Origin: an uncultured Bacteroidota bacterium
Lineage (GTDB): Bacteria; Bacteroidota; Bacteroidia; Bacteroidales; 4484-276
DNA length: 36,137 nucleotides
Assembly (NCBI GenBank): GCA_903944895.1
Contig: CAJATL010000017.1
Location: 1-36,137, forward strand
Reading direction: 5' to 3'
Below the pieces are notes generated by a model that was not told the origin of the DNA, did no database searches, and saw only the letters and a list, made by a program, of their open reading frames with translations. Below are positions 6,691 to 22,991 of the stretch, one piece after another. Each line of letters starts with the position of its first letter. Position 1 is the first letter of the stretch. The position numbers were made by a program, and so were the translations under genes.

Positions 6691-6691
6691 C

Positions 6692-7954: not shown

Positions 7955-8023
7955 CAAAGGTCGCTAACACACACTCCAGGATCATTACATAATTAGGAGA
8001 AAGAGTTACAACATTCACACATT
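7955..8023 (-). promoter_or_regulatory. Regulon box a: twin hexamer promoter of csbD-1
   Basis: Minus strand, towards the gene: TTGTAA (8011-8006), 15 bp, ATGTAA (7990-7985), 23 bp, ACCTTTG (7961-7955). The distal hexamer is preceded by AATGTGTGAATG. The ATG of csbD-1 lies about 58 bp beyond the −7 element. Spacing is identical in all six boxes of the window. Confidence 0.85.
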
Positions 8024-8054
8024 TCGGTTTTAAACAATACCCTTTTAAAAGGAG

Positions 8055-8086
8055 AAGGGCGTTCTGCAATGAAGCAAAACACCCTT
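8055..8086 (-). terminator. Hairpin after the TSP3-OmpA gene
   Basis: On the minus strand AAGGGTGTTTTGC (8086-8074) pairs with GCAGAACGCCCTT (8067-8055), including two G·T pairs, around a six-base loop. CTCCTTTTAAAAGGG follows. It lies about 28 bp past the stop codon and probably ends the ompA-like transcript. Confidence 0.6.
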
Positions 8087-8113
8087 TAAAATTAGAAGAA
8101 ATGGTAGATAGAA

Positions 8114-9571
8114 TTATTGAACAAGGCGTATTTCGACGCGTCTGTTTTTTGCTCTTCCTTCAGGTGTGGCGTTTGTATCTCTGGGGCGTGATTCGCCATA
8201 TCCTACAAAAGTCATACGTTTAGGGTCGATGCCTTTGTCGACAAAATATTGATGCATGGCATAAGCACGGCTTTCGGATAAAACCTGATTATCTGCATCC
8301 TGGCCAACATCATCGGTGTGACCTTCGATAGCAAATTTTGCATCAGGATATTGCTGCATGAGCGTAACAATTTCGTTGAGGTCCTTGTACGATTTTTGTT
8401 TTATCACGTACTTATTGGTCTCAAATTCCACATAATCAGAAAAACTGTTTAATTGGCTTTCGACTTCTTTTACCTTGACCTCAGTCATTTTCATGGTGGG
8501 GCAACCTTTATTTTCGATGGTTCCTTTTTCGTTGGGACAAGCATCTGAAACATCGGGAATACCATCAAAATCGGCATCCGGACAACCATTTGCTGATTTT
8601 GGACCAGCCATGGACGGACATTGATCTTCATTATCTGGAATACCATCACCATCACTATCAGGGCAACCACCAAACTGGGCTAAACCAGCAACATTTGGGC
8701 ATTTATCGTTGTCATCAAAAACACCGTCACCATCAGCATCAGGACAGCCATCAGTAATTTTTGGACCAGCAACTGTCGGGCATCTGTCTTCGGTATCAAT
8801 AACTCCGTCGCCATCGGTATCAGGGCAACCACCTAAAACTTTAGGACCAGCCACGGTAGGGCATTTATCTTCTTTATCAGGCACACCATCACCATCGGTA
8901 TCAGGGCAACCTTTAAATTCGGCAAGTCCGGCAGTATTTGGGCATAAATCTTTTTTATCGGAAATACCATCTTTATCTGCATCACTCTTTTTTCCAAACC
9001 TGGCCACAACGCCAAATGAATAATGGAAATAGTCGTTCCAATCGAAAACCCAATCGTAAGAACCTTCGGCGTTAACGCCAAGCCAGTCAGTTACCCAGAT
9101 ATTTACACCAACACCGGTTGATTGCGCCAGAAAGGTAGTTTCGTCAATAATCGAACCGTTAACACCCAGAAAAACATAAGGATCGAACATGGCGTCTTCC
9201 TTTAAAAGATAACCGTTCGTAAATTTGTAAGCAAACTGGCCCTGAATCCTCCACATGTTGTTATTTGAGATTGCTGGCTGATATTCTCCATCGGTCCAGG
9301 CATTTAACTTTTCCTTCTCCAGTTTAATCATCGAAAATTCGGTGCTGAATACGATTTCTTTGCTAAGTAATCTTGCCACTTTTAATTGCGAAAGAACTGT
9401 ATTTCCCATCCAGTTGGCATTGGTTAACTGCTCGCTGACAGGCATTGGAACAGCAAGAAAGTCAACGTAATTAGTACTTGCCCCAACAAGCCAGGGGCGC
9501 ATTTTGTTTTGTGATTGTGCTGCAAATGTTACAGCAAAAAACACGGCTAACAGTAAAATAATCTTTTTCAT
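8114..9571 (-). CDS. TSP3-repeat OmpA-family outer membrane protein
   Basis: A 485-residue protein with a signal peptide cleaved near residue 20 ('FAAQSQ') and an N-terminal beta-barrel region (~25-192). Thrombospondin type 3 calcium-binding repeats follow at ~197-357 (units like 'DTDGDGVPDKEDKCP'), then a C-terminal OmpA domain (~380-485). The OmpA domain contains 'IEGHTDDVG' and ends 'NRRVEIRLVQ', so it should bind peptidoglycan and tie the outer membrane to the wall. The repeats form a stiff, calcium-stabilised spacer. The gene has its own box-b promoter 43 bp upstream and a hairpin downstream, so it is probably a single transcription unit in the same regulon as the CsbD genes. Confidence 0.95.
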   Translation of the reverse strand: MKKIILLLAVFFAVTFAAQSQNKMRPWLVGASTNYVDFLAVPMPVSEQLTNANWMGNTVLSQLKVARLLSKEIVFSTEFSMIKLEKEKLNAWTDGEYQPAISNNNMWRIQGQFAYKFTNGYLLKEDAMFDPYVFLGVNGSIIDETTFLAQSTGVGVNIWVTDWLGVNAEGSYDWVFDWNDYFHYSFGVVARFGKKSDADKDGISDKKDLCPNTAGLAEFKGCPDTDGDGVPDKEDKCPTVAGPKVLGGCPDTDGDGVIDTEDRCPTVAGPKITDGCPDADGDGVFDDNDKCPNVAGLAQFGGCPDSDGDGIPDNEDQCPSMAGPKSANGCPDADFDGIPDVSDACPNEKGTIENKGCPTMKMTEVKVKEVESQLNSFSDYVEFETNKYVIKQKSYKDLNEIVTLMQQYPDAKFAIEGHTDDVGQDADNQVLSESRAYAMHQYFVDKGIDPKRMTFVGYGESRPRDTNATPEGRAKNRRVEIRLVQ

Positions 9572-9613
9572 ACGTCTTATATTTTTTAAATAATTAAATT
9601 AAAATCATTGGTA

Positions 9614-9682
9614 CAAAGGTCTTTCCTTTGGTGCCGGAAAGCGTTACATAATTAAGTTTAAGAGTTACATCATTCACACATT
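9614..9682 (-). promoter_or_regulatory. Regulon box b: twin hexamer promoter of the OmpA gene
   Basis: Minus strand: ATGTAA (9670-9665), 15 bp, ATGTAA (9649-9644), 23 bp, ACCTTTG (9620-9614). The flank AATGTGTGAATG precedes the distal hexamer. This copy matches the consensus at every position I compared. Confidence 0.88.
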
Positions 9683-9701
9683 ACCAGGTATTCTTAGCCT
9701 T

Positions 9702-10262
9702 TTAATGAATTGCAAGTCCAATGGTTGAAACACCGGTCGACAGATCGAGGAATAATCCGACCTTGTTATTCAGGTGGTATTCGGTACCGATATGTAAATC
9801 GAGAAATAAAGGATTTGGATAGGGGTAATAATCTTTATCACCATTATAGCCATCTTCCCATCTCGAGGTTATCAGAACAAATCCCAAAGAGCCCGCAAGG
9901 TAAAAATCCCAGTCGGAGTTTGCTTCGAAAATCCGGTCGAAATAGTAGGTGCCTTTTATACCAATTGGGATGTCGGTCTGGCGATAATAGTAAGAATTAT
10001 TCTGCCATTCGTGATCGTTTCGGTAGGTGTAAAAACTGATGAATGGAGCCAGCGTAAAACTGTTTGCCACATCAAATTCATAGTCAAGATGGAGAACAGG
10101 CATCATGTGCCCGGAGTGGTGGTAATACCCTGCATATCCGCCAATACCCACGCCCAGGTTTAATGTCTTGCCATAGCTTTCAGAATTTCTGGTATTCTGA
10201 GCGTCCAGATTAATCCCTATCATCATAAGGAATAATAGCATTGTTACTGTAATTGTTTTCAT
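9702..10262 (-). CDS. Small outer membrane beta-barrel protein
   Basis: A 186-residue protein with a signal peptide ('MLLFLMMIGINLDAQ', cleaved near 21) and about eight alternating beta-strands rich in tyrosine, tryptophan and glycine, ending in 'LSTGVSTIGLAIH'. Size and pattern suit an eight-stranded barrel of the OmpA/OmpX N-terminal type without a periplasmic domain. No promoter box precedes it; the gap from the extended YYYLPD frame is only 87 bp, so the two may share a transcript from box c. Specific function unknown. Confidence 0.75.
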   Translation of the reverse strand: MKTITVTMLLFLMMIGINLDAQNTRNSESYGKTLNLGVGIGGYAGYYHHSGHMMPVLHLDYEFDVANSFTLAPFISFYTYRNDHEWQNNSYYYRQTDIPIGIKGTYYFDRIFEANSDWDFYLAGSLGFVLITSRWEDGYNGDKDYYPYPNPLFLDLHIGTEYHLNNKVGLFLDLSTGVSTIGLAIH

Positions 10263-10349
10263 TTGTATAAAGTTTTAGATTAATATTAATTTTTGTTTGA
10301 TAATTTATTTTGTCAACACTTTTAGTCATTTAAAAATTCAGGAAATTGC

Positions 10350-10880
10350 CTACTTCTTTTTATTCTTCTTACCATTTCCATTGTCGTGTTTGAGTGCCTT
10401 TTGATTATTTTTATGGTTATCATTTCCATTGTATTTACCCTTGTCATGACGCTCGTTTTCATTTTGGTGATCCTGAGCTTTAAAGCGATTCCGGCCAGGC
10501 TTTTGGCCTATGGTCCGTTGCTTTCCTTAATGATAACCTTTATAATATTTTTTCCGGTAATCGTTATGATGAATGTATGGTGTGTTCCCGTGATAATCGT
10601 GCATGACCACTTTATAGCCGTTGTACAGGTCATAATTCCGGTAACGGACAGGCAGATAAGTTCTTTGAACCCAGATTCCATCGAGGTCGTAAATAAACAC
10701 CGACGATTGTACATCATAATAAGCCTCTACATCCGGCAGGTAATAATAGCGTACTTCGGTATATCCCACAGGACCCCAGGGTGGCGGAGTCCCAAGGTTT
10801 ATATTTACTGAGACCTGGGCTTGCACTGCAATTGCAGCAAACAACACCAATCCCAATACGAATAATTTTATCGTTTTCAT
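10350..10880 (-). pseudogene. Secreted YYYLPD-type protein with an in-frame TAA
   Basis: The frame opens with a signal peptide (residues 1-21, ending 'AAIAVQAQ') and encodes 'PPWGPVGYTEVRYYYLPDVE', a secreted Bacteroidota protein type that I recognise but cannot name functionally. After 117 codons it meets TAA at 10529-10527. The same frame then stays open for 58 codons ('GKQRTIGQKPGRN', then a lysine-, asparagine- and histidine-rich tail) to TAG at 10352-10350. The continuation is compositionally typical of the charged tails of this family. This points to a recent nonsense change, a sequencing error or stop readthrough. The first 117 residues may still be made. The gene has a full regulon box 42 bp upstream, so the promoter is intact. 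Confidence 0.7.
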
Positions 10881-10921
10881 GCTACTATTTTTTTTCAGGT
10901 TTGTTTGTAATTTTCACAGTA

Positions 10922-10990
10922 CAAAGGTCTCGCTGTTGGCAGCCGAAAGCGTTACACAATATTATGAAAGAGTTACATCATTCACACATT
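10922..10990 (-). promoter_or_regulatory. Regulon box c: twin hexamer promoter of the YYYLPD gene
   Basis: Minus strand: ATGTAA (10978-10973), 15 bp, GTGTAA (10957-10952), 23 bp, ACCTTTG (10928-10922). The upstream flank AATGTGTGAATG is conserved and borders a GGGCGGGGA stretch that also borders box e. Confidence 0.87.
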
Positions 10991-11293
10991 GGGCGGGGAA
11001 GGGAAGAGTGGAAGAATGGAAAGATGGAAGAATGAAAGAGTGGAAGAATAGGAGAAGTGAAGAGTGGGAAAATGGGAGAATAGGAGAATGTGGAAATTCG
11101 ACAATGGAAGAATGGAAGAGTGGAAAGGTGGAAGAATGGAATGGTGGAATGGTGGAAGAGTGGAATGGTGGAAGAGTGGAATGGTGGAATGGTGGAATGG
11201 TGGAAAAATAAACACGGAGGCAGGGAGAACACTGAGAAACACAGAGAAAGCGACAAATTTTCGATGTTGATTGGCATTATAAATGCCGCTTAA
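10991..11293. repeat. GGAAGAATGG satellite plus 'cacggaggca' and GCGGCATT modules
   Basis: About 215 bp of GGAAGAATGG / GGAATGGTGG units (10998-11208). The module CACGGAGGCAGGGAGAACAC (starting about 11214) follows and runs through 'AAATTTTCGATGTTG' into a degenerate GGCATTATAAATGCC palindrome (about 11271-11287). Module order is the same as at 17734-18002. Frames crossing it encode only W-, E- and G-rich or H-, S- and P-rich repeat peptides and are not genes. Confidence 0.8.
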
Positions 11294-11330
11294 CCCGACT
11301 GAATTTTTGGACTACGACCTGCCAATAAAT

Positions 11331-14300
11331 CTAACCATTGCAAAACTGCTTTAACTTGGCGAATAAAATACGCTTATCAATGGGTTTTATAATGATGTCG
11401 TCGCAGCCGGCGCTTAACGCAAGTTTCTTTTCTTTAACAATCGAATAGGCGGTGAGCGCGATAATCTTTATGTCGGGCCAGATGGCTTTAATCTGAGTGG
11501 TGGCTTTATAGCCATCGAGAACAGGCATTTTTAAATCCATCAAAATCAGATCGATGTTTTGAAACTCAGCCATCTTTTCGATGGCTTCCTGTCCGTTTTC
11601 GGCTTCAACGAGGGTTGCGTTTGTGGTTTCGAGCAACATTTGGATCAGCCGCATACTGATGGGATCATCTTCGGCGACGAGTATGGTTTTACCAGTCAAA
11701 TCAGGAATTGTTACGTCTTCGTCGCTTTCCTGCATTTGTACACCTAACGAAGTGATTTCGACAGGCACATGTAAAAAGAAAGTCGTGCCTTTGCCAACCT
11801 CCGATTCGACAACAATCCGTGCATTCATGGCCTCTGCAATCCTTTTTGAGATTGCCAGACCTATTCCAACACCTCCATAATAGCGCGTATTTGAATCGTC
11901 GAGCTGCCTGAAAAACTCGAAAATTATATCCATTTTATCTTGTTGAATCCCAACTCCAGTATCTCTTACATAAAACACAATCTCATTTTGGTCCTTTTGA
12001 TAAAAACCAAATTCGATAGTGCCTTTGCTTGTGAATTTTGATGCATTTTTAAAGAGGTTTACCAAAACCTGGTTTATTTTGCTCCGGTCTGCGATCAGAA
12101 AAGTTTGGAGTAATGTGCTGTCGGGTTTATAAACCAATTTGATTTCGTTTTCTTTACCGGCATTAACAATTATTTCGTCGAGGGCTTTCCGGTTTTCAAG
12201 AAAAATATCAATCCCTTTAAAAGATTGCTTTCTGATTTTAATCTGTCCCTGCTCGGCGAGTGCAAGATCGAAAATATCTTCGATAATATTTAAAAGGCCG
12301 GTGCCACTTTTAAAAATAATATTTGCCCAATCTTTAATTTCGGCGCTTTCGGCCATAGAATTTATGATTTCGCTAAACCCCAGAATATGGTTCAGCGGGG
12401 TTCTCAATTCATGATTCATCGTAGCGAGAAAAGCCGATTTCAGATGGTCGCTCTCTTCGGCTTTTTCTTTTGCCACAATTAACTCGGCAGCGCGATGTTC
12501 CTTCTCATGATTTTCGAAAACAAGTACTTCGTTGGCAACAATTAACTCGGCAGCCCGCTTTTCTTTTTCCAGGTTTTGAAATGCAAGTTCTCTATTGGCA
12601 ACAATTAATTCGGCTGCCCTACTTTCTTTCTCTTCATTTTCGAAAAGAAGTACCTTGTTGGCGATAATTAATTCAGCAGCCCGATTTTCTTTCTCCTTGT
12701 TTTCGAAAGCAAGCCTTTTGTTGGCGACAACTAATTCGGCTGCCCTACTTTCTTTTTCCAGGTTTTGAAAAGCCAGTTCTTGATTGGCGATAATTAATTC
12801 GGCTGCCCTACTTTCTTTCTCTTCATTTTCGAAAAGAAGTACCTTGTTGGCGATAATTAATTCAGCAGCCCGCTTTTCTTTCTCCTCGTTTTCGAAAGCA
12901 AGCCTTTTGTTGGCGACAACTAATTCGGCAGCCCGATTTTCTTTTTCCAGGTTTTGAAAAGCCAGTTCTTGATTGGCGATAATTAATTCGGCAGCCCGAT
13001 TTTCTTTTTCACGGTTTAAAAAGGCAAGTTCCTTGTTGGTAATGATTAATTCCTGCTCTATCGCAGTGATGTCTCTGATGGTAACTTGCTGCACATTTTC
13101 GCCACCCGATAAAAAAGCAGAAAATTGAATTATTGCCGGGAAAATCTCACCATTTGAGCGGGTAAAAATCCAGTCGATTTGTTTATCAGGCAGGTGTGCT
13201 TCGTTAATTATTTCATCAGCAATTTCGTCCGAAATCCTTCCATGGGCTTGTTTTAACGGTGAAAACCGGAGTGGATGCAACCCAAAAAGTTCTTCTTTAC
13301 GATCAATCTTAAAAATTTCTAAAGTTCGTTTATTGCAATCAAAAATGCCGTCCTTATTTAACAGCATGATTGCGTCGTTTGAACCTTCAAAAATTGATTT
13401 AAACTTTTCTTCGCTCTCGAGCAGTTTAATTTCGGTTTGCTTACGCATGGTTATATCACGACCAACGCCAAGCACCCCAATGATGGCTCCCGTGGAATCA
13501 AACATCGGCATTTTGTTGGTGTCCAGAAATAAGCTTTTTCCATCAGAGGCAAAAGTAACCCACTCTTCGTTACTGATGGGTTTGCCCGCAACCATGGCTG
13601 CACGGTCGTGTTCACGAAAGAAATCAGCAAGCTCCTTGTCAACAAAATCGTAATCGGTTTTACCAATAATGTCCTTTTCTGTGGCGCCAAAAAAGCGCTC
13701 GAACATCGAGTTGCACGACAGGTACACGCCCTCCGTATCTTTAAGCCAGATTAAATCGGGTATAGTTTGAAGGAGCGCACGCAAACGGATTTCGTTATTA
13801 CGAGTTTCCGTTTCGGCCAATTTGCGTTCATTGATATCAAGCACCAGCCCACTAACAAGCAGTGGTTTTCCGTCCGAGTCAGTTTTAGTAACGGAACCGA
13901 CATCGTAAAACCATTTATATTCACCCGATTTGGTCAAAATCCGGTATTCGATTTCAAATTTATCAACTAAACCAAGCAGATGATTTTTCATGGCTTGCAT
14001 CGTTCGTTCGGCATCTTCGGGATGAACAAGAGCGATAAAATCTGAATAATGTTCTAATTTTTCGTAAGGGTGCCCAAGCATTTTGGCTTTCCCTTTTTCA
14101 AAAGTAACATTTCCGGTAATGAGGTCCATCTCCCACCAGGCCATATTTCCCGACTTCAGGGCAAGTTCGAGGCGGAGGTTATTTGCTACCAATGCGGCTT
14201 CGGCCAGTTTGCGTTCGGTGATATCGATGTTGGCTCCTTTTAATTTACAAAGGTTACCATTGGTAAAAAAAGGAATGATGTTGTTTTGCAGCCATTTATA

Positions 14301-15023
14301 CGTTCCATCAGGAAAGGTTATTCGTATCTCGAATTTGGTGGGTGCTTTGCTTGCAAGCATATTTTCAAGCCCCTCATCAATCAGGTGAATATCATCAGGA
14401 TGGATTCTGCTTTTGAAATACGCTAAAGTGGGTGTAAACACAAAGGGTTCTAATCCGAACATTTCGTAACAATTTTTCGACCATTTACTTTTTTGATTGA
14501 TAAAATCATATTCCCAATCGCCCATTTTTGCAATTTCCTGGGCGTACTGAAGCGAAGATTCGCTTTCGCGAAGTACTTCCCCGGCCCATCGGCGCTGCGT
14601 GATGTCGCGGATATTGCATTGGATTACCTTGTGCCCGTTAACTGAATAGACATTACTGACAAACTCGACATTGATTTGTTTACCGGTTGCTGTTTCGAGT
14701 GGCAGGTCTTCGTAGCGGACATATTCTTTCTGCTGCAATTCGATAAATTTATCCCGGTTGGCAATAATATCTTTAAAAAATCCTATTTCCCAGATTGTCT
14801 TCTCGATGAAATCTTCCTTTGAATAGCCCAGCAGGTCAATCAAAAATGGATTAACATCATCAATTTTGCCGTTGTCGGCATCGAGGATAAGAATCCCATC
14901 TTTTGATGTTTCGAAAAGCCGCCTGTAGCGCGCTTCGGAAGCAATTAAGGCTTCCTGTATGGTAGATAATGATTTGTTTTCCGGATGTTTTTCACTTTGT
15001 TGAATTCCGACCAATGTTTCCAT
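11331..15023 (-). CDS. Hybrid histidine kinase: five PAS, 21-residue coiled-coil array, kinase, receiver
   Basis: A 1230-residue soluble kinase. Five PAS/PAC domains span ~26-145, 150-273, 280-403, 408-530 and 535-655; several end in the PAC motif 'DIT(E)RK'. Nine 21-residue coiled-coil units follow (~663-851). The HisKA domain has H871 ('MNHELRTPLN'). The HATPase domain has N993, DTGVG (1021-1025) and GVGIGL (1051-1056). The C-terminal receiver has D1163 and K1213. No membrane segment is present, so it senses cytoplasmic cues such as redox state or ligands. It has no output domain and probably phosphorylates its receiver, then another protein. Its promoter is box d, 33 bp upstream, making it the only kinase in the regulon. 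Units 2-4 and 5-7 of the array are a 63-residue duplication. Confidence 0.95.
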   Translation of the reverse strand: METLVGIQQSEKHPENKSLSTIQEALIASEARYRRLFETSKDGILILDADNGKIDDVNPFLIDLLGYSKEDFIEKTIWEIGFFKDIIANRDKFIELQQKEYVRYEDLPLETATGKQINVEFVSNVYSVNGHKVIQCNIRDITQRRWAGEVLRESESSLQYAQEIAKMGDWEYDFINQKSKWSKNCYEMFGLEPFVFTPTLAYFKSRIHPDDIHLIDEGLENMLASKAPTKFEIRITFPDGTYKWLQNNIIPFFTNGNLCKLKGANIDITERKLAEAALVANNLRLELALKSGNMAWWEMDLITGNVTFEKGKAKMLGHPYEKLEHYSDFIALVHPEDAERTMQAMKNHLLGLVDKFEIEYRILTKSGEYKWFYDVGSVTKTDSDGKPLLVSGLVLDINERKLAETETRNNEIRLRALLQTIPDLIWLKDTEGVYLSCNSMFERFFGATEKDIIGKTDYDFVDKELADFFREHDRAAMVAGKPISNEEWVTFASDGKSLFLDTNKMPMFDSTGAIIGVLGVGRDITMRKQTEIKLLESEEKFKSIFEGSNDAIMLLNKDGIFDCNKRTLEIFKIDRKEELFGLHPLRFSPLKQAHGRISDEIADEIINEAHLPDKQIDWIFTRSNGEIFPAIIQFSAFLSGGENVQQVTIRDITAIEQELIITNKELAFLNREKENRAAELIIANQELAFQNLEKENRAAELVVANKRLAFENEEKEKRAAELIIANKVLLFENEEKESRAAELIIANQELAFQNLEKESRAAELVVANKRLAFENKEKENRAAELIIANKVLLFENEEKESRAAELIVANRELAFQNLEKEKRAAELIVANEVLVFENHEKEHRAAELIVAKEKAEESDHLKSAFLATMNHELRTPLNHILGFSEIINSMAESAEIKDWANIIFKSGTGLLNIIEDIFDLALAEQGQIKIRKQSFKGIDIFLENRKALDEIIVNAGKENEIKLVYKPDSTLLQTFLIADRSKINQVLVNLFKNASKFTSKGTIEFGFYQKDQNEIVFYVRDTGVGIQQDKMDIIFEFFRQLDDSNTRYYGGVGIGLAISKRIAEAMNARIVVESEVGKGTTFFLHVPVEITSLGVQMQESDEDVTIPDLTGKTILVAEDDPISMRLIQMLLETTNATLVEAENGQEAIEKMAEFQNIDLILMDLKMPVLDGYKATTQIKAIWPDIKIIALTAYSIVKEKKLALSAGCDDIIIKPIDKRILFAKLKQFCNG

Positions 15024-15055: not shown

Positions 15056-15124
15056 CAAAGATGTATTTAATCGTTCCGGAGGGTTTTACATAATTAAAGT
15101 TATTATTTACATCATTCACAGATT
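15056..15124 (-). promoter_or_regulatory. Regulon box d: twin hexamer promoter of the hybrid kinase
   Basis: Minus strand: ATGTAA (15112-15107), 15 bp, ATGTAA (15091-15086), 23 bp, ATCTTTG (15062-15056). The upstream flank is AATCTGTGAATG. The −7 core has T for C at its second position; spacing is unchanged. The remainder of the gap to 15241 shows nothing recognisable. Confidence 0.85.
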
Positions 15125-15241: not shown

Positions 15242-16507
15242 TTAAGGTTCAGTAATCCGCATATAAATTAAAACCCCGGCGGCGGCAGTCATTAATATTA
15301 GGGCGGCAAAACCAAAAATATTCGACTTCCTGCTATTGGTAAATTTACCCATAATTTTTTTATTATTCGAGATATGAAGAATAATTACGATCAAAACCGG
15401 TGCAGTCATTCCATAAAGTATGGCCGAATAAATCAATGCATCAATCGGCGAAATGCCCATGTAGGTCATCGACAAACCTAGCACCAGTGAAATACCTATG
15501 ATGATATAAAAAATCTTTGCCTGATGGAATTTTTTATCCAATCCATTTTTCCAGCCAAATGTTTCGGTAAAAATATACGACAACGATCCGCTCAATACCG
15601 GGATGGCCAACAGGCCGGTGCCGATTACACCAATGGCAAAAAGCAGATAGGCCGAATCCCCGGCTAATGGTTTTAAAGCCTGAGCGGCCTGCTCAACCGT
15701 TTCAATCTGATGAATACCTGCATTAAATAAAACTGTCCCGGTGGTGAGAATAAGGAAAAACATGACAATATTTGAAAATAGCATTCCAAAGTCAACATCT
15801 TTTTTCATTTCGGAAATGATTCTTTTGTTCACCACCAGATGCTTTTTCTTTTGCTGCTCAACTTCCATCGTAGCCTGCCAAAAGAAAAGATACGGCGAAA
15901 TAGTAGTGCCAAGGATGGCAACCAGCATGCTGATATAATTTTTGTCGAATTTTATGGTAGGGATAAAGGTGGCTTTAAGAATGGCCCCCAGGTCCTGTTT
16001 ATATAAAAACGGAATAATGAGGTACACAACAAGCACGATGCTGAGATATTTCAGCACCGAAGCAATTCGTTGATAGGGCAAATAAATAATCAGTGCTAAA
16101 AGAATAACTGTAAAAAAGACACTGAAAAAAGATGCATGGATAGCCGGAAACAACAAGTTTCCCACGGCCCCCATTCCTGCAATATCGGCGCCGATATTCA
16201 TCACAATGGCCGGAAAACTAAACAACAGCATCAAATACAAAACAAATTTCGAATAATTCGCCCGAAGCGTTCCGGCCAAACCACTCGAAGTTACCAGCCC
16301 GATTCTGGCACACATTTCCTGGATAGAAGCCATCAGCGGAAATGTGATCAATGCGGTCCAAAGTGTTGAAAGGCCATAAGCGGCACCGGCCTGCGAGTAA
16401 GTCGCAATTCCCGATGGATCGTCGTCGCTGGCACCGGTAACAAGACCGGGGCCTAATATTTTCCAGAACCGAAAAAGCTTATTCGTAGTTTTTTTGCCCT
16501 TATCCAT
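15242..16507 (-). CDS. NRAMP-family metal transporter with variant binding site
   Basis: A 421-residue inner-membrane protein with about 11 spans and the NRAMP (SLC11) fold. The first span should carry D-P-G-N; here it is D30-P31-S32-G33. The sixth span should carry M-P-H; here it is S204-P205-Y206 in 'GTTISPYLFFWQ'. The aspartate is kept, but the asparagine, methionine and histidine are lost. Loss of the sulfur ligand and the asparagine is a feature of NRAMP-related magnesium transporters (NRMT group), so transport of Mn2+ or Fe2+ should not be assumed. Aluminium or other substrates are also possible. The gene is about 105 bp downstream of the lipoprotein gene and may be its own unit. Confidence 0.85.
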   Translation of the reverse strand: MDKGKKTTNKLFRFWKILGPGLVTGASDDDPSGIATYSQAGAAYGLSTLWTALITFPLMASIQEMCARIGLVTSSGLAGTLRANYSKFVLYLMLLFSFPAIVMNIGADIAGMGAVGNLLFPAIHASFFSVFFTVILLALIIYLPYQRIASVLKYLSIVLVVYLIIPFLYKQDLGAILKATFIPTIKFDKNYISMLVAILGTTISPYLFFWQATMEVEQQKKKHLVVNKRIISEMKKDVDFGMLFSNIVMFFLILTTGTVLFNAGIHQIETVEQAAQALKPLAGDSAYLLFAIGVIGTGLLAIPVLSGSLSYIFTETFGWKNGLDKKFHQAKIFYIIIGISLVLGLSMTYMGISPIDALIYSAILYGMTAPVLIVIILHISNNKKIMGKFTNSRKSNIFGFAALILMTAAAGVLIYMRITEP

Positions 16508-16612
16508 TTTTCTGTTTCTGCCGGATTACATCTCATAATTTACTATTCCAAAAAAAACCACTAAACATCGGCTGTAAAATACCGGTTTTGGCTTTTTTAA
16601 GGCGAATTTTGT

Positions 16613-17080
16613 TTACTCATTATTGTTTATTGCCAGGTCCTTTAAAGCCTGGGCAAGTTCACCCAGATCATGATTAAATTCACGTTTGAAGGAAGCCCAA
16701 TCGCTTTGATTTTCTTTATAGGCTTCAATCTTAATATTCAGCGCATTGTTTTGCTGTTCGAGAACGATGATCCTTTTCTCATAAAGTATATCAAGCGTCT
16801 TGCATGGTCTCTTCATCTTTACTTTTAATTCGGAAATCCTGATTTCATTATTCCTGATTGTAGCAATGGATTCGCTCATAAAGGTTTCCCAATTTTCGGC
16901 AGAGACCGTTTTCAACTTATCTTCTTTTGTGCTATTTTGAATATCAATCAACTTTTGCTGGGCACGCTGCACCTTGATCTCGGCTGCTTCCACTTTTTTA
17001 GCTGCCGACCTGCATCCTGCAATGATTATTCCCGAAAACAACAATGCCGCAAGAGAGAGTACAAAAAAAGGACTTTTCAT
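16613..17080 (-). CDS. Coiled-coil lipoprotein
   Basis: A 155-residue protein with a lipoprotein signal peptide: hydrophobic core 'LSLAALLFSGIII' and lipobox I-A-G-C with C23 as the lipidated cysteine. The mature part is almost wholly helical, with predicted coiled coil ('VEAAEIKVQRAQQKLIDIQNS') and a central C-terminal helix pair. I recognise no named family. It lies 92 bp after csbD-2, beyond that gene's terminator, so expression may depend on readthrough or an unseen promoter. Given the neighbours, an envelope-stress role is possible but not shown. Confidence 0.75.
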   Translation of the reverse strand: MKSPFFVLSLAALLFSGIIIAGCRSAAKKVEAAEIKVQRAQQKLIDIQNSTKEDKLKTVSAENWETFMSESIATIRNNEIRISELKVKMKRPCKTLDILYEKRIIVLEQQNNALNIKIEAYKENQSDWASFKREFNHDLGELAQALKDLAINNNE

Positions 17081-17112
17081 GCTGATGGTTTTTTGAATTT
17101 TAAGATGATGAC

Positions 17113-17155
17113 TTAAAAAGTACTGTTTAACGGGCTTTCCCGCCGAACAGTACTT
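17113..17155 (-). terminator. Intrinsic terminator after csbD-2
   Basis: On the minus strand AAGTACTGTT (17155-17146) pairs with AACAGTACTT (17127-17118), with an inner CGGG/CCCG stem, and a T run follows immediately (17119-17115). It lies 18 bp past the csbD-2 stop. This is the clearest intrinsic terminator in the window. Confidence 0.85.
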
Positions 17156-17172
17156 CTAACAAAAACCAGTGG

Positions 17173-17358
17173 TTAAAGGTCAGCAATCAACTTATGCAAT
17201 TCATCCTTTGTTTTGCCAAGTTTAATCTGAAGTTTTCCTAACATCTCATCTTTTTTACCGTCTTCAAACATCAGGTCGTTATCGGTTAAGATGGCAAATT
17301 TTTGTTTTAGCTTACCTTTCTGGTCATTCCAGTTTCCTTTTACTTCTGTAGCGTTCAT
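17173..17358 (-). CDS. CsbD-family stress protein (copy 2)
   Basis: A 61-residue CsbD-like protein, closely matching copy 1 over its whole length ('MNATEVKGNWNDQKGKLKQKF' through 'KLGKTKDELHKLIADL'). I chose the ATG at 17358 because it aligns exactly with copy 1; the longer frame to 17415 would add 19 unrelated residues that run over the promoter. Box e lies 59 bp upstream and the terminator 18 bp downstream, so it is a compact single-gene unit. Substitutions between the copies are mostly conservative (T/A, D/N, E/D). Confidence 0.92.
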   Translation of the reverse strand: MNATEVKGNWNDQKGKLKQKFAILTDNDLMFEDGKKDEMLGKLQIKLGKTKDELHKLIADL

Positions 17359-17416
17359 TGTACTTTTATTTAATTCCCGTAACTGCCGGGACATTTGTGA
17401 ATTAATTTCCACCACA

Positions 17417-17485
17417 CAAAGGTGATTCTATAAACACCTTAAAGCATTACACAATAAAAGGAAAGAGTTACATCATTCACACATT
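17417..17485 (-). promoter_or_regulatory. Regulon box e: twin hexamer promoter of csbD-2
   Basis: Minus strand: ATGTAA (17473-17468), 15 bp, GTGTAA (17452-17447), 23 bp, ACCTTTG (17423-17417). The upstream flank is AATGTGTGAATG, next to GGGCGGGGA as in box c. Confidence 0.88.
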
Positions 17486-18003
17486 GGGCGGGGAGGAGAT
17501 GAAGAGGGGGAGAAACGGAGACGGGGAGAAGTTTTTACCACGGAGGCACGGAGAGCAAAGAGATGAGGAAAATTGGAATGATGGAAGATTGGAAGAGTGG
17601 AAGAATGTGACTATTTGATAATTCGACCCCCGATAGCTATCGGGGCGACAATGGAAGAATGGAATGTTGGAAGAATGGGAGAATGTGGAAATTCGACAAT
17701 TCGACAATGGAAGAGAGGAATATTGGAATATCGGAAGATGCTTTTACCACGGAGGCACGGTGAACACTAAGAAACACAGAGAAATGGACAAATTTTCGAT
17801 GTTGAGCAGCATTTGTAATGCCGCTTAGCTTTGGGAGAAGAATGGAAAGATGGAACGTTGGAATGTTGGAATGTTGGAATGATGGAATGTTGGAATCCTG
17901 GAAGATGCTTTTACCACTGAGGCACGGTGAACACTAAGAAACACAGAGAAATGGACAAATTTTCGATGTTGAGCGGTATTTGTAATGCCGCTTAGCTTTG
18001 GGC
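17486..18003. repeat. Composite repeat region with a 102-bp unit in two copies
   Basis: Satellite units of GGAAGAATGG type alternate with a conserved 102-bp unit at 17734-17835 and 17901-18002. Each unit runs from GAAGATGCTTTTACCAC through GAGGCACGGTGAACAC and AAATTTTCGATGTTGAGC to TAATGCCGCTTAGCTTTGGG. The copies differ at only a few positions. A third, shorter 'ACCACGGAGGCACGG' copy lies at about 17536-17550. A perfect CCCCGATAGCTATCGGGG palindrome sits at 17628-17645. No gene is visible from 17486 to 18105. Confidence 0.8.
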
Positions 18004-18105
18004 TTAAAACAGAAAAGAGAAAAACAGATATTTAAACCCGCCTTTCTCATCCTGAATTTAGTGACATGAAAAACCCAAATACATCTTACAAATCCACTAT
18101 TATTA

Positions 18106-18540
18106 TTACATCCGCTCCATGTACCAGCTCAGTTCCTTTTCCATTTTCCTGAACCTGAAAATGGTGGTGATGATTTTTTGTAAACGGATGAAAGCTGTTT
18201 CACTTTTTACAACATAGTCGAAAGCCTTGTGGTGCATGCAGCTTATGGCAACATCAATTTTATCCTGTGCCGAAAGTATCACCACCGGAATATCCGGATT
18301 GAAGGCTTTTATTTTATCCAGGGTTTCGATTCCATTCATGGCCGTTTTATTAATCCCATCGAGCATATAATCTAAAATGATTATATCGGGGGTATGCTGC
18401 AGATTTTCCAAACAAAGTTCGCCGGTGGCAAAGGTTTCGATGGTAAAATCGGCGCTCTGAAGAAATTCGATTTCCAACGATTTTAAGAAAACGGCGTCAT
18501 CATCCACCAGGAACAGTTTTATTTTATTTTCAGTTTTCAT
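18106..18540 (-). CDS. Single-domain response regulator
   Basis: A 144-residue receiver-domain protein with acidic residues D13-D14-D15, phosphoacceptor D57 ('IIILDYML'), S90 in 'VVILSAQ' as the switch residue, and K112. The C-terminal helix is extended ('IFRFRKMEKELSWYMERM') but has no DNA-binding domain. It lies 75 bp after the 1041-residue hybrid kinase on the same strand. That kinase ends in an HPt domain, which makes a phosphorelay to this regulator plausible. Confidence 0.92.
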   Translation of the reverse strand: MKTENKIKLFLVDDDAVFLKSLEIEFLQSADFTIETFATGELCLENLQHTPDIIILDYMLDGINKTAMNGIETLDKIKAFNPDIPVVILSAQDKIDVAISCMHHKAFDYVVKSETAFIRLQKIITTIFRFRKMEKELSWYMERM

Positions 18541-18615
18541 TTTTGCGTGTTCAAGTTTTTTTTGGTAAGATACATTGTTTTCCCGGCTTCGCTGATGAAT
18601 TTTTATTTTAGAATT

Positions 18616-21600
18616 TCACCTTTTAGCATTTTTGATCCGGTTAAACTCCTCCTCCAATTCCTTACAAGCCTGCGTGCAAACGGCTCCAAGCTGTAAAACC
18701 AGGTCATGGATTCCTTCGGTTTGCTGCTGCGTGCTGGCAAATTCCTGCACTTTTTTTGCCATATTTTCGAAATCGTGACTGATGCCCATGATCGAAAAAG
18801 AAGGGATCATCTTATGAACGGCTGCATGTAACGAATTCCAGTCGTGATCTTTAAAACTTCTTTTCATCATGACAATTAACGGTGGGGTCTGTTCAAGATA
18901 AGCTGCAATCATTTCCATCATCAATGTCGGATTGGATTTTGTTCGCAGCATTAAATATTCCAGGTCGATGCACTTTTGCTTCTTATTTTCGACTCCTGTT
19001 TCCCCATTAATCTCGTTTAATTTTACAATCGTGGGCTTCCTGACCAACCCCATAATTTTTCCATACAAAAGCTTTTCGTCTATGGGTTTTGCGATGTAAT
19101 CGTTCATGCCAACAGCCTTGCACCTGGCCAGGTCAACTGTGGTAACATCGGCAGTCAGTGCAATAATAGGGATTTCAGAACCCATTTTGTCCCGAATGTA
19201 GGCCGTTGTTTCAAACCCGTTCATCTCGGGCATTTGAAGATCCATTAAAACGACATCAAACGATTTCGATTCAAGTTTTTCGATGGCTATTTTTCCGTTT
19301 GAGGCAATCTCACATTCAAAACCGAAATCATCCAAAAGTGTGCGCATCAGCAACTGGTTGAGCGGGATGTCTTCGGCTACCAGAACTCTTATACTTTTTA
19401 TTTCGTTATCCAAATCCTCAACTTCTTTTTCGTTTTCGACTTCAACATTTGTTTTCGCAAAGCTCAGAATAAAGCTAAAAGTAGAACCTTCGTCAACTTT
19501 ACTGGTTACACGAATACTTCCGCCTTGCGGCTCGACCAATTGACGGACTATGGCCAGGCCTAAACCGGTTCCGCCATAAATCCTCGATGTACCGCTGGAA
19601 CCCTGCGCGAAGTTTTCGAAAATCTTTTCGATTTTCTCTTCGGCGATTCCAATTCCAGTATCTGCGACAGCAAATTCGATGGTAGCCTTTTCTTCGTTCT
19701 GGCTCAGCAAACGAACACTAACCGTAATTTTTCCTTTAGAAGTAAACTTTACAGCATTGCTCACAAGGTTTAAAATAATCTGATGCAAGCGCACCGGGTC
19801 GCCAACCAACACTTCAGGGACATTGCTGTCGTATTCTTTGATGAGTTTGAGATTCTTTTCCTGAATTTTGGTTTCGAACAGATGGAGCATGGCCGAAATG
19901 GATAATTCCATTTTAAAGGGAATTTGCTCGAACGTCATTTTTCCGGCATCAACTTTTGCAAGGTCAAGAATATCGTTAATAAGCACAATCAAGGCGTCGC
20001 CACTCATTTTGATGGCATGCAGGTATTCGTTTTGCTTAGCCGATAAATCGGTTTTTAGCAAAACTTTGGTAAAACCGATAATCGCATTCATGGGCGTACG
20101 GATTTCGTGGCTCATATTCGACAAAAACTGCTGCTTTGCTTTTACCGCATTTACTGCGGTTCGGGTGGCGCTTTCGGCTTTGCTTTTTTCGTCTTCGGCA
20201 ATGGCCGTTGCCAGTTCGGCAAACACTTTTGCTTCGATCAGTTCTTTTTCGGTAATTTTTTGTTCGGTGATATCACGTGCTACCACCACTGCGCCGAGTA
20301 CTTTTCCGTTTTCATCTTTATAAACCGAGCCATTAAATAAAACATCGGTCAGCTTTCCATCCCTTATCGTAAGCGGATAATCGCTTACAGAGCCATTGGC
20401 AAAAATTTCTTCATAAACTTCACGTGCTTTTTGCGGATTGGTGAAATAATCAAAAAAGTCGGTGCCGGTTAATTTTTCTCTGGAAACTTCTGTAATGTTC
20501 GAAAATGCCTCATTCATGTCGGTGATTTTACCGCCGGCACTGATGGTAACCAATGGGTCGAGGCTGGCTTCGATCAAACTGCGGGCATAGTTTGCAACGA
20601 CTAACTCCGCTGCCCGTTTTTCCTTTTCATCGTTTTGAAATGCCAGCTCTTTATTGGCGATGATTAACTCCGCCGCACGTTTCTCCTTTTCGTTATTTTG
20701 ATAAGCAAGTTCCTTGTTGGCGATACCTAATTCGTCGGCGCGTTTTTCTTTTTCATTATTTTGATAGGCAAGCTCCTTGTTAGCGATGATTAGTTCAGCT
20801 GCACGTTTTTCCTTTTCATTGTTTTGAAAAGCCAGTTCTTTGTTGGCGATGCCTAATTCCTGTGCCCGTTTTTCTTTTTCATTGTTTTGAAAAGCAAGTT
20901 CTTTATTAGCAACGCCTAATTCCTGTGCTCGTTTTTCCTTCTCATCGTTTTGATATGCCAGCTCTTTGTTGGCGATGATTAACTCAGAAGCTCGTTTTTC
21001 CTTTTCGTTATTTTGAAATGCAAGTTCTTTGTTGGCAACGCCTAATTCCTGGGCACGCTGTTCTTTTTCACCATTCTGATAGGCAAGCTCTTTGTTAGCG
21101 ATGATTAACTCAGAAGCCCGTTTTTCCTTTTCGTTATTTTGAAATGCAAGTTCTTTGTTGGCAACGCCTAATTCCTGGGCACGCTTCTCTTTCTCATCGT
21201 TTTGAAATGCCAGTTCTTTATTGGCAATGATTAACTCGGCAGCCCGCTGTTCTTTTTCAACATTCTGGAAGGCAAGTTCTTTATTGGCAACGATAAGTTC
21301 ATGTGCCCGTTGTTCTTTCTCATCATTCTGGAAAGCAAGTTCTTTATTGGCCTTTCGCAATTCGGTTGCCCATTTTTGCTCTGAAATGTCTCTGGCAACA
21401 ACAACTGCACCCACTACATTTCCATGAATATCTTTATAAACCGATCCATTAAACAAGACATCGGTAAGCTTGCTGTTTTTATGACGAAAAGTAAGCGGCG
21501 AATCGGCAATATTTCCTTTTGCAAAAACTTCCTGATAGACTTCTCTCGCCTTCTGAGGTTCGGTAAAATAGTCGTAAAAATTAGTGCCAATGAGCTTATC

Positions 21601-21741
21601 ACGTTCAACTCCGGTGATATTAACCTTTGCCTGGTTCACGTCGGTAATTTTGCCTTCCGGGCTGATGGTAATCAACGGATCCAGGCTGGCTTCGATCAGG
21701 CTGCTGGCATATAGCGAATTATGTGTCTTTGTCCGTTCCAT
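18616..21741 (-). CDS. Hybrid histidine kinase: PAS, 12-unit coiled coil, PAS, kinase, receiver, HPt
   Basis: A 1041-residue soluble kinase. PAS domain 1 spans ~10-122. Twelve 21-residue units occupy 133-384, each like 'KELAFQN-x-EKEKRA'. PAS domain 2 (~385-495) closely resembles PAS 1; both open with 'SLIEASLDPL(I/V)TIS'. A second helical linker leads to HisKA with H545 ('MSHEIRTPMN') and HATPase with N662, DTGIG (694-698) and GTGLGL (724-729). The receiver has D834 and K885. The C-terminal HPt domain has its likely phosphohistidine at H976 in 'HKMIPSFSIMG'. This is a complete His-Asp-His relay that needs an external receiver, supplied by the gene 75 bp downstream. An AraC-type regulator lies 29 bp upstream, so the three form an operon. 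Confidence 0.95.
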   Translation of the reverse strand: MERTKTHNSLYASSLIEASLDPLITISPEGKITDVNQAKVNITGVERDKLIGTNFYDYFTEPQKAREVYQEVFAKGNIADSPLTFRHKNSKLTDVLFNGSVYKDIHGNVVGAVVVARDISEQKWATELRKANKELAFQNDEKEQRAHELIVANKELAFQNVEKEQRAAELIIANKELAFQNDEKEKRAQELGVANKELAFQNNEKEKRASELIIANKELAYQNGEKEQRAQELGVANKELAFQNNEKEKRASELIIANKELAYQNDEKEKRAQELGVANKELAFQNNEKEKRAQELGIANKELAFQNNEKEKRAAELIIANKELAYQNNEKEKRADELGIANKELAYQNNEKEKRAAELIIANKELAFQNDEKEKRAAELVVANYARSLIEASLDPLVTISAGGKITDMNEAFSNITEVSREKLTGTDFFDYFTNPQKAREVYEEIFANGSVSDYPLTIRDGKLTDVLFNGSVYKDENGKVLGAVVVARDITEQKITEKELIEAKVFAELATAIAEDEKSKAESATRTAVNAVKAKQQFLSNMSHEIRTPMNAIIGFTKVLLKTDLSAKQNEYLHAIKMSGDALIVLINDILDLAKVDAGKMTFEQIPFKMELSISAMLHLFETKIQEKNLKLIKEYDSNVPEVLVGDPVRLHQIILNLVSNAVKFTSKGKITVSVRLLSQNEEKATIEFAVADTGIGIAEEKIEKIFENFAQGSSGTSRIYGGTGLGLAIVRQLVEPQGGSIRVTSKVDEGSTFSFILSFAKTNVEVENEKEVEDLDNEIKSIRVLVAEDIPLNQLLMRTLLDDFGFECEIASNGKIAIEKLESKSFDVVLMDLQMPEMNGFETTAYIRDKMGSEIPIIALTADVTTVDLARCKAVGMNDYIAKPIDEKLLYGKIMGLVRKPTIVKLNEINGETGVENKKQKCIDLEYLMLRTKSNPTLMMEMIAAYLEQTPPLIVMMKRSFKDHDWNSLHAAVHKMIPSFSIMGISHDFENMAKKVQEFASTQQQTEGIHDLVLQLGAVCTQACKELEEEFNRIKNAKR

Positions 21742-21770
21742 TGTAATCGAATTTCGTATTCAGGTTAGTG

Positions 21771-22343
21771 TTAATCATTATTCCCGATTTCTTCAATCGG
21801 GCTGCGTCGTTTATTTTTTAATTGCTTAAAGTGACTCGGCGAAAGCCCCGTCATTTTCTTGAACTGATTGGATAAATGCGCCACGCTGCTGTAATTCATC
21901 TGCCAGGCAATTTCGGTAATGCTCAACTCGTCGTAAATGATCAATTCCTTGATCCGCTCAATTTTATGTGAAATGATAAATTGCTCGATACTTGTTCCCT
22001 GAACTTCCGAAAAGAGGTTTGCCAGGTAGGTGTAATCGTGGTTTAATTTTTCGCTCAGATAATCTGAAAAATTAACTTTAACTGCCTCATTTGTATGATG
22101 AACCATTTCGACAATGGCATTTTTGATCTTTTCGATTAACACCGCACGTTTGTCGTCCATCAATTCGAGTCCGGAACTGTGTAAAGCAATTTTGAGCTCT
22201 TCGCGCTGCCCGATGGTGAGGGTTTCCATGATCTCTACTTCACCCAGATCGACCACAATAAAATGCAGTCCCAGATTTCGTAAAGCCTCCTTCACCGCCA
22301 GTTTGCAGCGGTTGCTCACCATGTATTTAATGTGTATTTTCAA
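21771..22343 (-). CDS. AraC-type regulator with HMA-like N-terminal domain (copy 1)
   Basis: A 190-residue regulator. Residues ~95-180 form an AraC/XylS DNA-binding domain with two helix-turn-helix units ('SITEIAWQMNYSSVAHLSNQFKK' and 'TGLSPSHFKQLK'). Residues 1-65 ('IKYMVSNRCKLAVKEALRNLG', 'VVDLGEVEI', 'HSSGLELM') follow the beta-alpha-beta-beta-alpha-beta order of a heavy-metal-associated (HMA) domain. In the loop where HMA proteins have M-x-C-x-x-C, this protein has M-V-S-N-R-C, keeping only the second cysteine. It starts the operon with the hybrid kinase and response regulator. It may bind the regulon boxes described here, but that is inference. The HMA likeness rests on pattern only. Confidence 0.85.
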   Translation of the reverse strand: MKIHIKYMVSNRCKLAVKEALRNLGLHFIVVDLGEVEIMETLTIGQREELKIALHSSGLELMDDKRAVLIEKIKNAIVEMVHHTNEAVKVNFSDYLSEKLNHDYTYLANLFSEVQGTSIEQFIISHKIERIKELIIYDELSITEIAWQMNYSSVAHLSNQFKKMTGLSPSHFKQLKNKRRSPIEEIGNND

Positions 22344-22471
22344 GTTTATATTATCTTTAAAATTAGCGGCAAAGTTGAGTAGCGCGTATCAAAAAAAATA
22401 GTTTTATAGTTAGCAGATCAAGACACTTCATCCAGAAATTATTACGCTGATCGTACCTTTTGTGAAGAAGA

Positions 22472-22810
22472 TTACTCATACCCACTTTTAATAACCGTCA
22501 GTATCATTTTAAACCGTCCGTTAGGTTTGATATAATTTCGTGCATGAGCCGGAATGATAACCGATTGGCCGGTTTCGAGCACACAAGAGGCACCATCAAT
22601 TACAATTTCGGCTTTACCTTCGATAATCTGAGCGTAGGAATCGAAAGGAGTAGTCTTTTCAGTTAACCCTTCGCCACTGTCGAACGACATTACGCTGATA
22701 TTGCCTGTCGATTTTTTAAGAATGGTCTTGATGACCACCGAATTAGGCACATACTCGATAATTTCGACGGTAATGTGTACTCTCGACTTTTCCATTTCAC
22801 TTGTTTCCAT
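22472..22810 (-). CDS. Small cupin protein
   Basis: A 112-residue single-domain cupin ('GEGLTEKTTPFDSYAQIIEGKAEI' and 'ETGQSVIIPAHARNYI'). The usual first metal ligand, a histidine in 'SEHTAPFD' of relatives, is a lysine here ('TEKTTPFD'). The second motif has a histidine in 'AHARNY', shifted from the common 'IPHAL'. Metal binding is therefore doubtful and a sensing or binding role more likely than catalysis. I chose the ATG at 22810; the longer frame to 22879 adds a hydrophobic 23-residue start that looks accidental, though it would give a leader length like those of the other box genes. Its promoter box f lies upstream, overlapping the end of the second AraC gene. Confidence 0.8.
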   Translation of the reverse strand: METSEMEKSRVHITVEIIEYVPNSVVIKTILKKSTGNISVMSFDSGEGLTEKTTPFDSYAQIIEGKAEIVIDGASCVLETGQSVIIPAHARNYIKPNGRFKMILTVIKSGYE

Positions 22811-22922
22811 AAATTTAGTTTTAATAAGATGCTTAATAAATATGAGATGAACAAAAACCTTAGCATGAAAAACCTGCATTTTTTTGGTTTTTCACGTAAA
22901 TTACGGGAATATGTTCAAGTTA

Positions 22923-22991
22923 CAAAGGTGATCCCTTCATAACCTAAAAACATTACATAATTAAATAAAAGATTTACATCATTCCCAGTTT
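22923..22991 (-). promoter_or_regulatory. Regulon box f: twin hexamer promoter of the cupin gene
   Basis: Minus strand: ATGTAA (22979-22974), 15 bp, ATGTAA (22958-22953), 23 bp, ACCTTTG (22929-22923). The distal hexamer includes the TAA stop codon of the AraC-type gene (22976-22974), so the final codons of that protein (L-G-M-M) are part of the operator. The upstream flank is degenerate (CTGGGAATG). Confidence 0.85.

Follow-up and report, generated by a model that had tools for sequence, protein, structure and literature searches.

Which regulator acts on six promoters that share one twin-repeat layout is the question raised by a 36,137-nucleotide stretch of contig CAJATL010000017.1 from an uncultured bacterium of the order Bacteroidales (the window, meaning the whole stretch analyzed). 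The first-pass annotation had described boxes a to f, between positions 7955 and 22991, each reading NTGTAA, 15 bp, RTGTAA, 23 bp and AYCTTTG on the minus strand, and had proposed that they define a new local regulon. Our analysis suggests that the six boxes are very probably class II sites, where a dimer of a small AraC-family protein is predicted to activate sigma-A promoters of envelope and stress genes. Comparative evidence strongly supports the element as a putative binding site of the small AraC-type regulator encoded beside it. The shared regulator and the one invariant promoter architecture stand from the original proposal, but the word "local" does not, since the sites are found genome-wide and in several orders. 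The sites of the window are:

Site a, 7955..8020, minus strand: twin repeat and −7 element (7955-7962), 5' of csbD copy 1; exact pattern
Site b, 9614..9679, minus strand: twin repeat and −7 element, 5' of the TSP3-OmpA gene; exact pattern, 0 mismatches to the extended core
Site c, 10922..10987, minus strand: twin repeat and −7 element, 5' of the gene for a secreted YYYLPD protein; exact pattern
Site d, 15056..15121, minus strand: twin repeat and −7 element, 5' of the gene for a 1230-aa PAS hybrid kinase; exact pattern
Site e, 17417..17482, minus strand: twin repeat and −7 element, 5' of csbD copy 2; exact pattern
Site f, 22923..22988, minus strand: twin repeat and −7 element, 5' of the cupin gene; exact pattern

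All six boxes are present where they had been annotated: a scan of the window with up to 3 mismatches returned exactly these six matches and no others, all with 0 mismatches and on the minus strand, while dinucleotide shuffles of the window (n=100) gave a mean of 0.23 matches and at most 2. The spacings of 15 and 23 are common to all six sites, and the spacer bases are variable. In site a, the G of the −7 element is 58 bases away from the ATG of csbD. The hexamers had also been placed in longer direct repeats 21 bp apart. That period holds in all six sites; the repeats are, however, imperfect, because 9 to 13 of the 17 aligned bases are identical, and the conserved element is longer than had been described.

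Sites from other genomes were collected with the upstream core alone (GTGTGAATGATGTAA-N12-ATTRTGTAA), leaving the −7 element out of the search. This yielded 126 sites (up to 4 mismatches) in 46 loci, whereas the reversed control gave 0. A logo built from 114 distinct sites reads GTGTGAATGATGTAAC-TCTTT ... AATTRTGTAAC-nCTTT ... ACCTTTGT. The half-site AATnRTGTAACnCTTT is repeated 21 bp away, the distal copy being preceded by an additional GTGTG, and ACCTTTGT occupies a fixed downstream place although the search ignored that region. The presence of several near-identical copies in one window could also suggest a mobile or repeated element as their origin. However, the spacer bases vary while the spacings hold, the boxes lie 5' of unrelated genes and are conserved between families, and beyond the repeats and the −7 region the logo shows no more than background. 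On the logo this explanation was rejected, and we consider its probability close to nil.

The spacing of the element was analyzed on 332 distinct sites (up to 3 mismatches) in the 163 sources scanned. In 218 of them the distance to A..TTTG is exactly 23 bp; it is 22 bp in 9 and 24 bp in 2, and each of the other offsets tested accounts for 0-3 sites; the shorter A..TT is present at the fixed place in 305/332 sites, including 54/54 perfect ones. An open reading frame (ORF) starts within 450 bases of 298 sites. The sites are mostly intergenic, 10/332 being inside an ORF of at least 100 aa (30 bases at each ORF end disregarded), so that the pattern is not equally frequent inside genes, nor is it in shuffled DNA.

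Rigid spacing across hundreds of promoters, together with stress-type genes, could point to an alternative sigma factor of the extracytoplasmic function (ECF) type, the repeats then being extended −35 elements. However, a single sigma factor would not span two repeats with a 21-bp period, and no sigma-factor family was recognized by reading among the recurrent neighbors in 117 loci that had been retrieved with only the motif. The main text of PMC9723704 gives the Bacteroidota sigma-A −7 consensus as TAnnTTTG at −12 to −5 in Flavobacterium psychrophilum, and a CGT box for ECF promoters. The predicted −7 element of our sites fits the former. An alternative sigma factor, which is extremely unlikely, was rejected because the A..TTTG element is of the sigma-A type and the CGT −10 box of the ECF type was not found.

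Counting from the −7 element, the proximal repeat would span approximately −44 to −29 and the distal one −65 to −50. Both the site logo and the repeat alignment agree with the earlier remark that the proximal repeat occupies the place of a −33 element. This overlap with the core promoter would also be consistent with repression, in which the AraC protein covers the −33 place and blocks the polymerase until a signal releases it. In that case, however, no −33 element is left for the unaided polymerase, and the fixed 23-bp spacing (218/332) is expected of a contact with polymerase, not of a roadblock; moreover, XylS, with a similar layout, is described as an activator in part of PMC5481539. Repression therefore appears unlikely, and activation by the AraC protein is the reading followed below.

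The likely regulator is encoded in two copies inside or beside the interval 7955-22991, where it had been overlooked by the first-pass annotation. A cassette with two signaling genes is found there:

AraC1, 22974..23543, minus strand: small AraC-family regulator of 189 aa and proposed activator, predicted chaperone-like N-terminal domain and two helix-turn-helix (HTH) motifs; Pfam HTH_18 1.8e-15
AraC2, 21771..22343, minus strand: paralog of AraC1 (65% identical), 190 aa; Pfam HTH_18 4.6e-17
Hybrid PAS histidine kinase of the regulator cassette, 18616..21741, minus strand; by Pfam
Receiver-only response regulator of the cassette, 18106..18540, minus strand; Pfam Response_reg

As read from the sequence, the distal repeat of site f includes the AraC1 stop codon (ATG ATG TAA). 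Elsewhere, 12 of the 27 AraC genes of the motif-selected loci likewise have a site that overlaps their 3' end or comes after it. Two features place the protein in the AraC/XylS family, namely a double-HTH C-terminal domain (HTH_18, AlphaFold2 model and Foldseek) and half-sites arranged as tandem direct repeats with a period of about 21 bp close to the −35 region. AraC1 was modeled with AlphaFold2 from 23 sequences, with a mean pLDDT of 88.1 and a pTM of 0.74. Its C-terminal domain is all-helical and matches AraT, YesN, MarA and GadX in Foldseek. The N-terminal domain has the order beta-alpha-beta-beta-alpha-beta and matches TTHA1718, Atx1, CopZ and ATOX1 weakly (E values 0.056 to 0.17, TM scores by target 0.58-0.69); among the 50 best rows, the designed protein 9dia_C (E value 0.033) stands ahead of these copper chaperones. 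The Pfam HMA domain was not detected in AraC1, AraC2 or three relatives scanned. The MxCxxC motif was not found in the window copies, which have MVSIRC and MVSNRC instead. The second cysteine of the motif is invariant in 23 aligned sequences, and the first position is serine in 40 and cysteine in 18 of 59 site-linked proteins. Since the fold match is weak, metal binding is left as an inference; from the model, the N-terminal domain could possibly sense metal or redox state.

The linkage between this protein and the sites was assessed from several directions. Among 393 genomes of the order, 56 have both at least 2 sites and an AraC protein matching at E≤1e-70, 9 have only sites, 18 have only the AraC protein and 310 have neither; the Fisher value for this co-occurrence, 3e-42, overstates independence because the genomes are related. 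In the 117 motif-selected loci, this AraC ranks first in frequency among the families of ORFs with at least 75 aa, being present in 24 loci by profile and in 22 by clustering. Conversely, 30 loci were selected only for AraC similarity, the window's own genome included. They contain 32 AraC genes; a site with up to 4 mismatches was found no further than 1.5 kb from 26 of these genes, and in 16 cases it is at most 350 bases upstream. In six genomes chosen for many sites and long contigs, 12/18 genes of small AraC-family proteins (frames of 180-216 aa) lie within 2 kb of a site, as do 0/66 genes of other AraC-family proteins. The remaining cassette members also recur near the AraC gene: the hybrid kinase has a homolog in 19/40 order regions and in 10/117 motif-selected loci (6 of them also with AraC), and the receiver protein in 19/40 and 11/117 (7 also with AraC), respectively.

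Relatives of the regulator outside the stress loci provide a further line of evidence. Small AraC relatives in loci L291-L330 of the same order, mostly with MxCxxC, adjoin genes for HMA-type ATPases, RND and cation-efflux proteins or ArsP-type permeases. A first set of such relatives was taken from 20 genomes without a stress site in the order scan (up to 3 mismatches), and MxCxxC is kept in 16 of the 17 alignable proteins of L291-L310. An exploratory look at this set revealed repeats 21 bp apart in the neighboring promoters; the rule was then fixed as TRTAA, 21 bp, TRTAA (at most 1 mismatch), 23 bp and A..TTTG. The second set comprised 20 new loci hand-picked from the AraC match list (E values ~1e-57 to 1e-76, part of the range left out), several of them in genomes that also hold stress sites. 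The 21/23 combination gave 13 matches in the first set and 13 in the second, whereas the other 109 combinations of distance and spacing gave a mean of 0.25 (maximum 3) and 0.26 (maximum 2), respectively; some of the loci share one genus, so the matches are partly non-independent. In 22/26 cases the match precedes a gene in which Pfam recognizes an E1-E2_ATPase domain, an HMA domain or both, with 69 to 142 bases between the distal repeat and this gene in 19 matches and 415 to 427 in three. The other four matches comprise one in front of a DUF3347 gene, one in front of a gene without a Pfam match, and two unscanned. Since the 21/23 geometry follows the AraC subfamily, it is the strongest evidence for AraC as the regulator.

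In a FastTree phylogeny of 95 sequences, midpoint-rooted and with sampling biased towards site-linked proteins, 16 of 17 proteins from the motif-free loci and two from other motif-free genomes form one clade (support 0.79). This clade, which like the root is provisional, holds no site-linked protein. The metal would be, in our reading of the ATPase type, copper. The L291-L330 proteins are a candidate Bacteroidota family of metal (copper?) regulators with a predictable operator.

A LytTR-type response regulator could be considered as the protein that recognizes the sites, since known LytTR sites likewise consist of direct repeats close to the −35 region with a period of about 21 bp, the same as here. 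In support of this possibility, and at variance with the AraC assignment, a LytTR regulator gene (Pfam 9.2e-16) of the window's own genome lies 0.9 kb from the site on contig C272 (L039:5293-5358 and 6268-7005), and in the six genomes 1/92 LytTR genes are within 2 kb and 3/92 within 5 kb of a site. The first of these counts compares with 12/18 for the small AraC genes, however, and was the reason why LytTR was rejected: there is no regular linkage in the six genomes. No LytTR family was recognized by reading among the families present in at least 3 of the 117 motif-selected loci, and the loci of AraC relatives show the same architecture again. We consider LytTR very unlikely and retain the small AraC protein as the predicted regulator. 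Besides the gene near the C272 site, genome G157 has a LytTR gene 1.3 kb from a 3-mismatch site.

The distribution of the sites was examined starting from the window's own genome (7,167,115 bases in 424 contigs). The exact pattern occurs 8 times there and the reversed pattern 0 times. With a shorter core and at most 2 mismatches, 11 sites were found on four contigs. At 3 mismatches the short core gave 24 matches in all and 22 in the control; such matches, being at the control level, were not counted as sites. Outside the window, contig C135 carries three sites, and C272 and C366 carry one each. The C135 sites precede a DUF5670-YtxH gene run followed by Phage_holin_3_6 and AI-2E_transport genes, an OmpA-family gene, and a small gene before that of a 525-aa protein, for which no Pfam match was found. 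Downstream of the C366 site are a short ORF and then an oxidoreductase-like gene (by reading), a DnaJ-type gene and a MerR_2 gene. Short-core matches were also seen at 21-bp steps in C271:5847-5920 (L030-L033; GGATGATGCAATTACATTATT repeated); this tandem repeat with a 21-bp unit probably has no connection with the regulon.

In the order as a whole, the extended core (up to 3 mismatches) is present in 85/393 genomes, with 530 matches against 5 in the reversed control, and the exact full pattern occurs in 3/12 genomes of the window's family. In a sample of the phylum, 28/395 genomes have matches, many of them one 3-mismatch match, against 1 control match. An exact scan of named genomes returned at least 117 stretches. 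Among the 80 matches listed, which do not give a rate, are many Bacteroidales (including Mariniphaga, Sunxiuqinia, Draconibacterium and Paludibacter) as well as Mucilaginibacter, Arcticibacter, Flavobacterium, Lutibacter, Saprospiraceae and Chitinophagaceae. Three Ignavibacteria records with exact extended sites (L168, L202 and L217), far from the window's order, also appear among the matches listed. Seven named genomes searched whole contain 8, 2, 14, 13, 2, 1 and 11 sites, with 0 in the control; the 14 sites are in Mariniphaga sediminis, a cultured carrier, and Sunxiuqinia indica, also cultured, has 8. A regulon island is present in G266 (C1:959058-1001801, partly in L126), where ~43 kb contain 14 sites together with two divergent AraC genes. 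The system is patchy, as most genomes have no site.

The first gene downstream (within 300 bp) was determined for 290/332 sites, and the genes were clustered by BLAST single linkage, representatives of the main clusters being named by Pfam and the remaining names given by reading. The largest clusters are Ice_binding (39), CsbD (25), OmpA with a glycine zipper (21) and the small AraC regulators themselves (15), followed by MlaE (14), lipoprotein-like (12), cupin-like (11), DUF6600 (8) and YYYLPD (6) proteins, and smaller ones such as Dps-like ferritins. There are 70 singletons, several of them DUF5670-like by reading. BON genes also belong to the set, and YtxH, Usp and DnaJ-type genes occur in runs behind the sites. 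Judging by gene names, the predicted regulon is an envelope/general-stress set in several orders, in line with the set originally proposed for the window.

Several observations weigh against the assignment of these sites and genes to a stress regulator of the AraC family, in addition to the relatedness of the genomes and the LytTR gene mentioned above. Seven genomes (G057, G117, G160, G209, G312, G367 and G389) have at least 3 sites but no AraC protein at E≤1e-70. Conversely, 10 genomes have the AraC protein and no site at up to 3 mismatches, some of them, as among the site-only ones, being incomplete metagenome-assembled genomes; G044, with an AraC match of 1.3e-104, has no site. In the AraC-chosen set, 6/32 genes have no site within 1.5 kb, and in the six genomes 6/18 small AraC genes are away from sites, perhaps as metal-type paralogs. 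Among the sites, 103/332 have no A..TTTG within 3 bp of the fixed place, and 20 of the 85 positive genomes of the order have a single match. Finally, the label "stress" is derived from the names of the genes.

In the window, the genes behind the six sites proved to be those named in the original description, according to Pfam and the reading frames:

csbD copy 1, target of site a, 7712..7897, minus strand; Pfam CsbD 1.1e-14
TSP3-OmpA outer-membrane protein, target of site b, 8114..9571, minus strand; Pfam OmpA and TSP_3
Secreted YYYLPD protein, target of site c, 10527..10880, minus strand; 6 loci have relatives downstream of a site
1230-aa PAS hybrid histidine kinase, target of site d, 11331..15023, minus strand; by Pfam
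csbD copy 2, target of site e, 17173..17358, minus strand; Pfam CsbD 2.5e-13 on the longer frame 17173-17415, start read from the sequence
Cupin gene, target of site f, 22472..22879, minus strand; Cupin_2 2.1e-05, under the family cut-off
MlaE permease, next gene after csbD copy 1, 6692..7579, minus strand; Pfam MlaE 1.3e-69

No match to the YYYLPD protein was found in Pfam or NCBIfam. The MlaE family is the first gene behind a site in other genomes (the above cluster of 14, with MlaE as the representative). Both hybrid kinases, 18616-21741 and 11331-15023, contain long runs of a KELAFQNEEKEKRAAELIIAN-like repeat, in many similar copies, between the PAS and kinase parts. Elsewhere in the window, the segment 24195-29437 has three consecutive Glycoamylase-type genes, of which two were assigned by Pfam PF10091 and one by reading. 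Glycoside-hydrolase-like genes follow them, and the Glycoamylase-type genes are on the strand opposite to the stress cluster.

By analogy with described systems, tandem direct repeats near the −35 region are typical of AraC/XylS activators. At araI1-araI2, E. coli AraC has tandem half-sites 21 bp apart with the proximal one at the −35 element; unlike this protein, which senses sugar by a cupin-like domain and loops DNA, the window regulator gives no indication of either. The XylS repeats at Pm are also 21 bp apart and overlap the −35 element. Part of PMC5481539 describes them as a pair of tandem direct repeats of 15 bp, both composed of an A box and a B box, and XylS as a protein with a double-HTH C-terminal domain whose activation involves bending and polymerase contact; a reference title cited there states that the XylS and polymerase sites overlap. 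The blocks of MtlR are placed at −72/−58 and −50/−36, 22 bp apart, in excerpts of PMC4514859. The window system resembles XylS/Pm in its tandem direct repeats and double-HTH C-terminal domain, but it differs in the box sequences, in the use of a Bacteroidota sigma-A with its −7 element, in having many promoters instead of one, and in the small chaperone-like N-terminal domain that stands in place of the benzoate-binding domain of XylS. The metal-locus relatives (L291-L330) have the same domain layout and the same 21/23 promoter architecture, but differ in the intact MxCxxC, in their metal-transport targets and in looser TRTAA repeats, mostly without the GTGTG extension.

The general stress regulons of sigma-B and RpoS include CsbD, YtxH, Dps-like, Usp, OmpA and DnaJ-type genes, and the predicted regulon overlaps with them in these genes, as judged by Pfam; unlike them, it would depend on an activator protein at sigma-A promoters and not on an alternative sigma factor. 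To our knowledge, no counterpart of sigma-B or RpoS that would coordinate the general stress genes is known in Bacteroidota, and no answer as to how they are coordinated was found among the literature titles listed. Nor did the titles and abstracts listed contain a description of the motif, the regulon or the regulator, which agrees with the first-pass statement that no Bacteroidota regulator with such a site had been described. The −7 element of our sites equals the sigma-A consensus given in the paper on the promoter classes SM1-SM6 of F. psychrophilum (PMC9723704); the terms AraC, TGTAA, CsbD and direct repeat each occur 0 times in its main text.

We suggest the following mechanism. Each AraC monomer would cover one ~16-bp repeat (AATnRTGTAACnCTTT), so that two monomers bind head to tail on a single face of the double helix, at a distance of 21 bp or two helical turns. 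The proximal monomer would stand in for the missing −33 element and recruit the sigma-A polymerase at a fixed distance, with transcription starting from a normal sigma-A −7 element (nAnCTTTG) at the fixed 23 bp. Through the sites before the regulator's own gene the regulon would be partly self-regulated. The signal, presumably raised by an envelope or general stress, may be carried by the neighboring hybrid kinase and the receiver-only protein. The AraC relatives at metal-efflux loci would use the same operator geometry.

Taken together, these observations allow for an evolutionary scenario, to which we give about an even chance. A metal-efflux (copper-type) regulator could have been duplicated early in Bacteroidota, lost the first cysteine of its motif in most of the descendants examined here, and been rewired as a master regulator of the general/envelope stress response. 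As a functional counterpart of sigma-B/RpoS, this AraC activator would retain the ancestral 21/23-bp geometry and, in a given genome, take over the role of the −33 element at as many as two dozen sigma-A promoters. The direction of descent between the two branches is inferred here. Class II activation by AraC-type proteins is of a known kind; its use as the backbone of a widespread stress/envelope regulon of Bacteroidota would, on this reading, be new.

The small AraC-type protein is thus a candidate master stress regulator in Bacteroidota, and the analysis offers a candidate regulator, operator, promoter mechanism and gene list for many species. The occurrence of one operator geometry in two AraC branches, at metal-transport loci and at stress genes, would make the evolution of the regulon traceable. 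Further, many small proteins of unknown function, such as DUF5670, DUF6600, YYYLPD and Ice_binding, may thereby gain a functional context.

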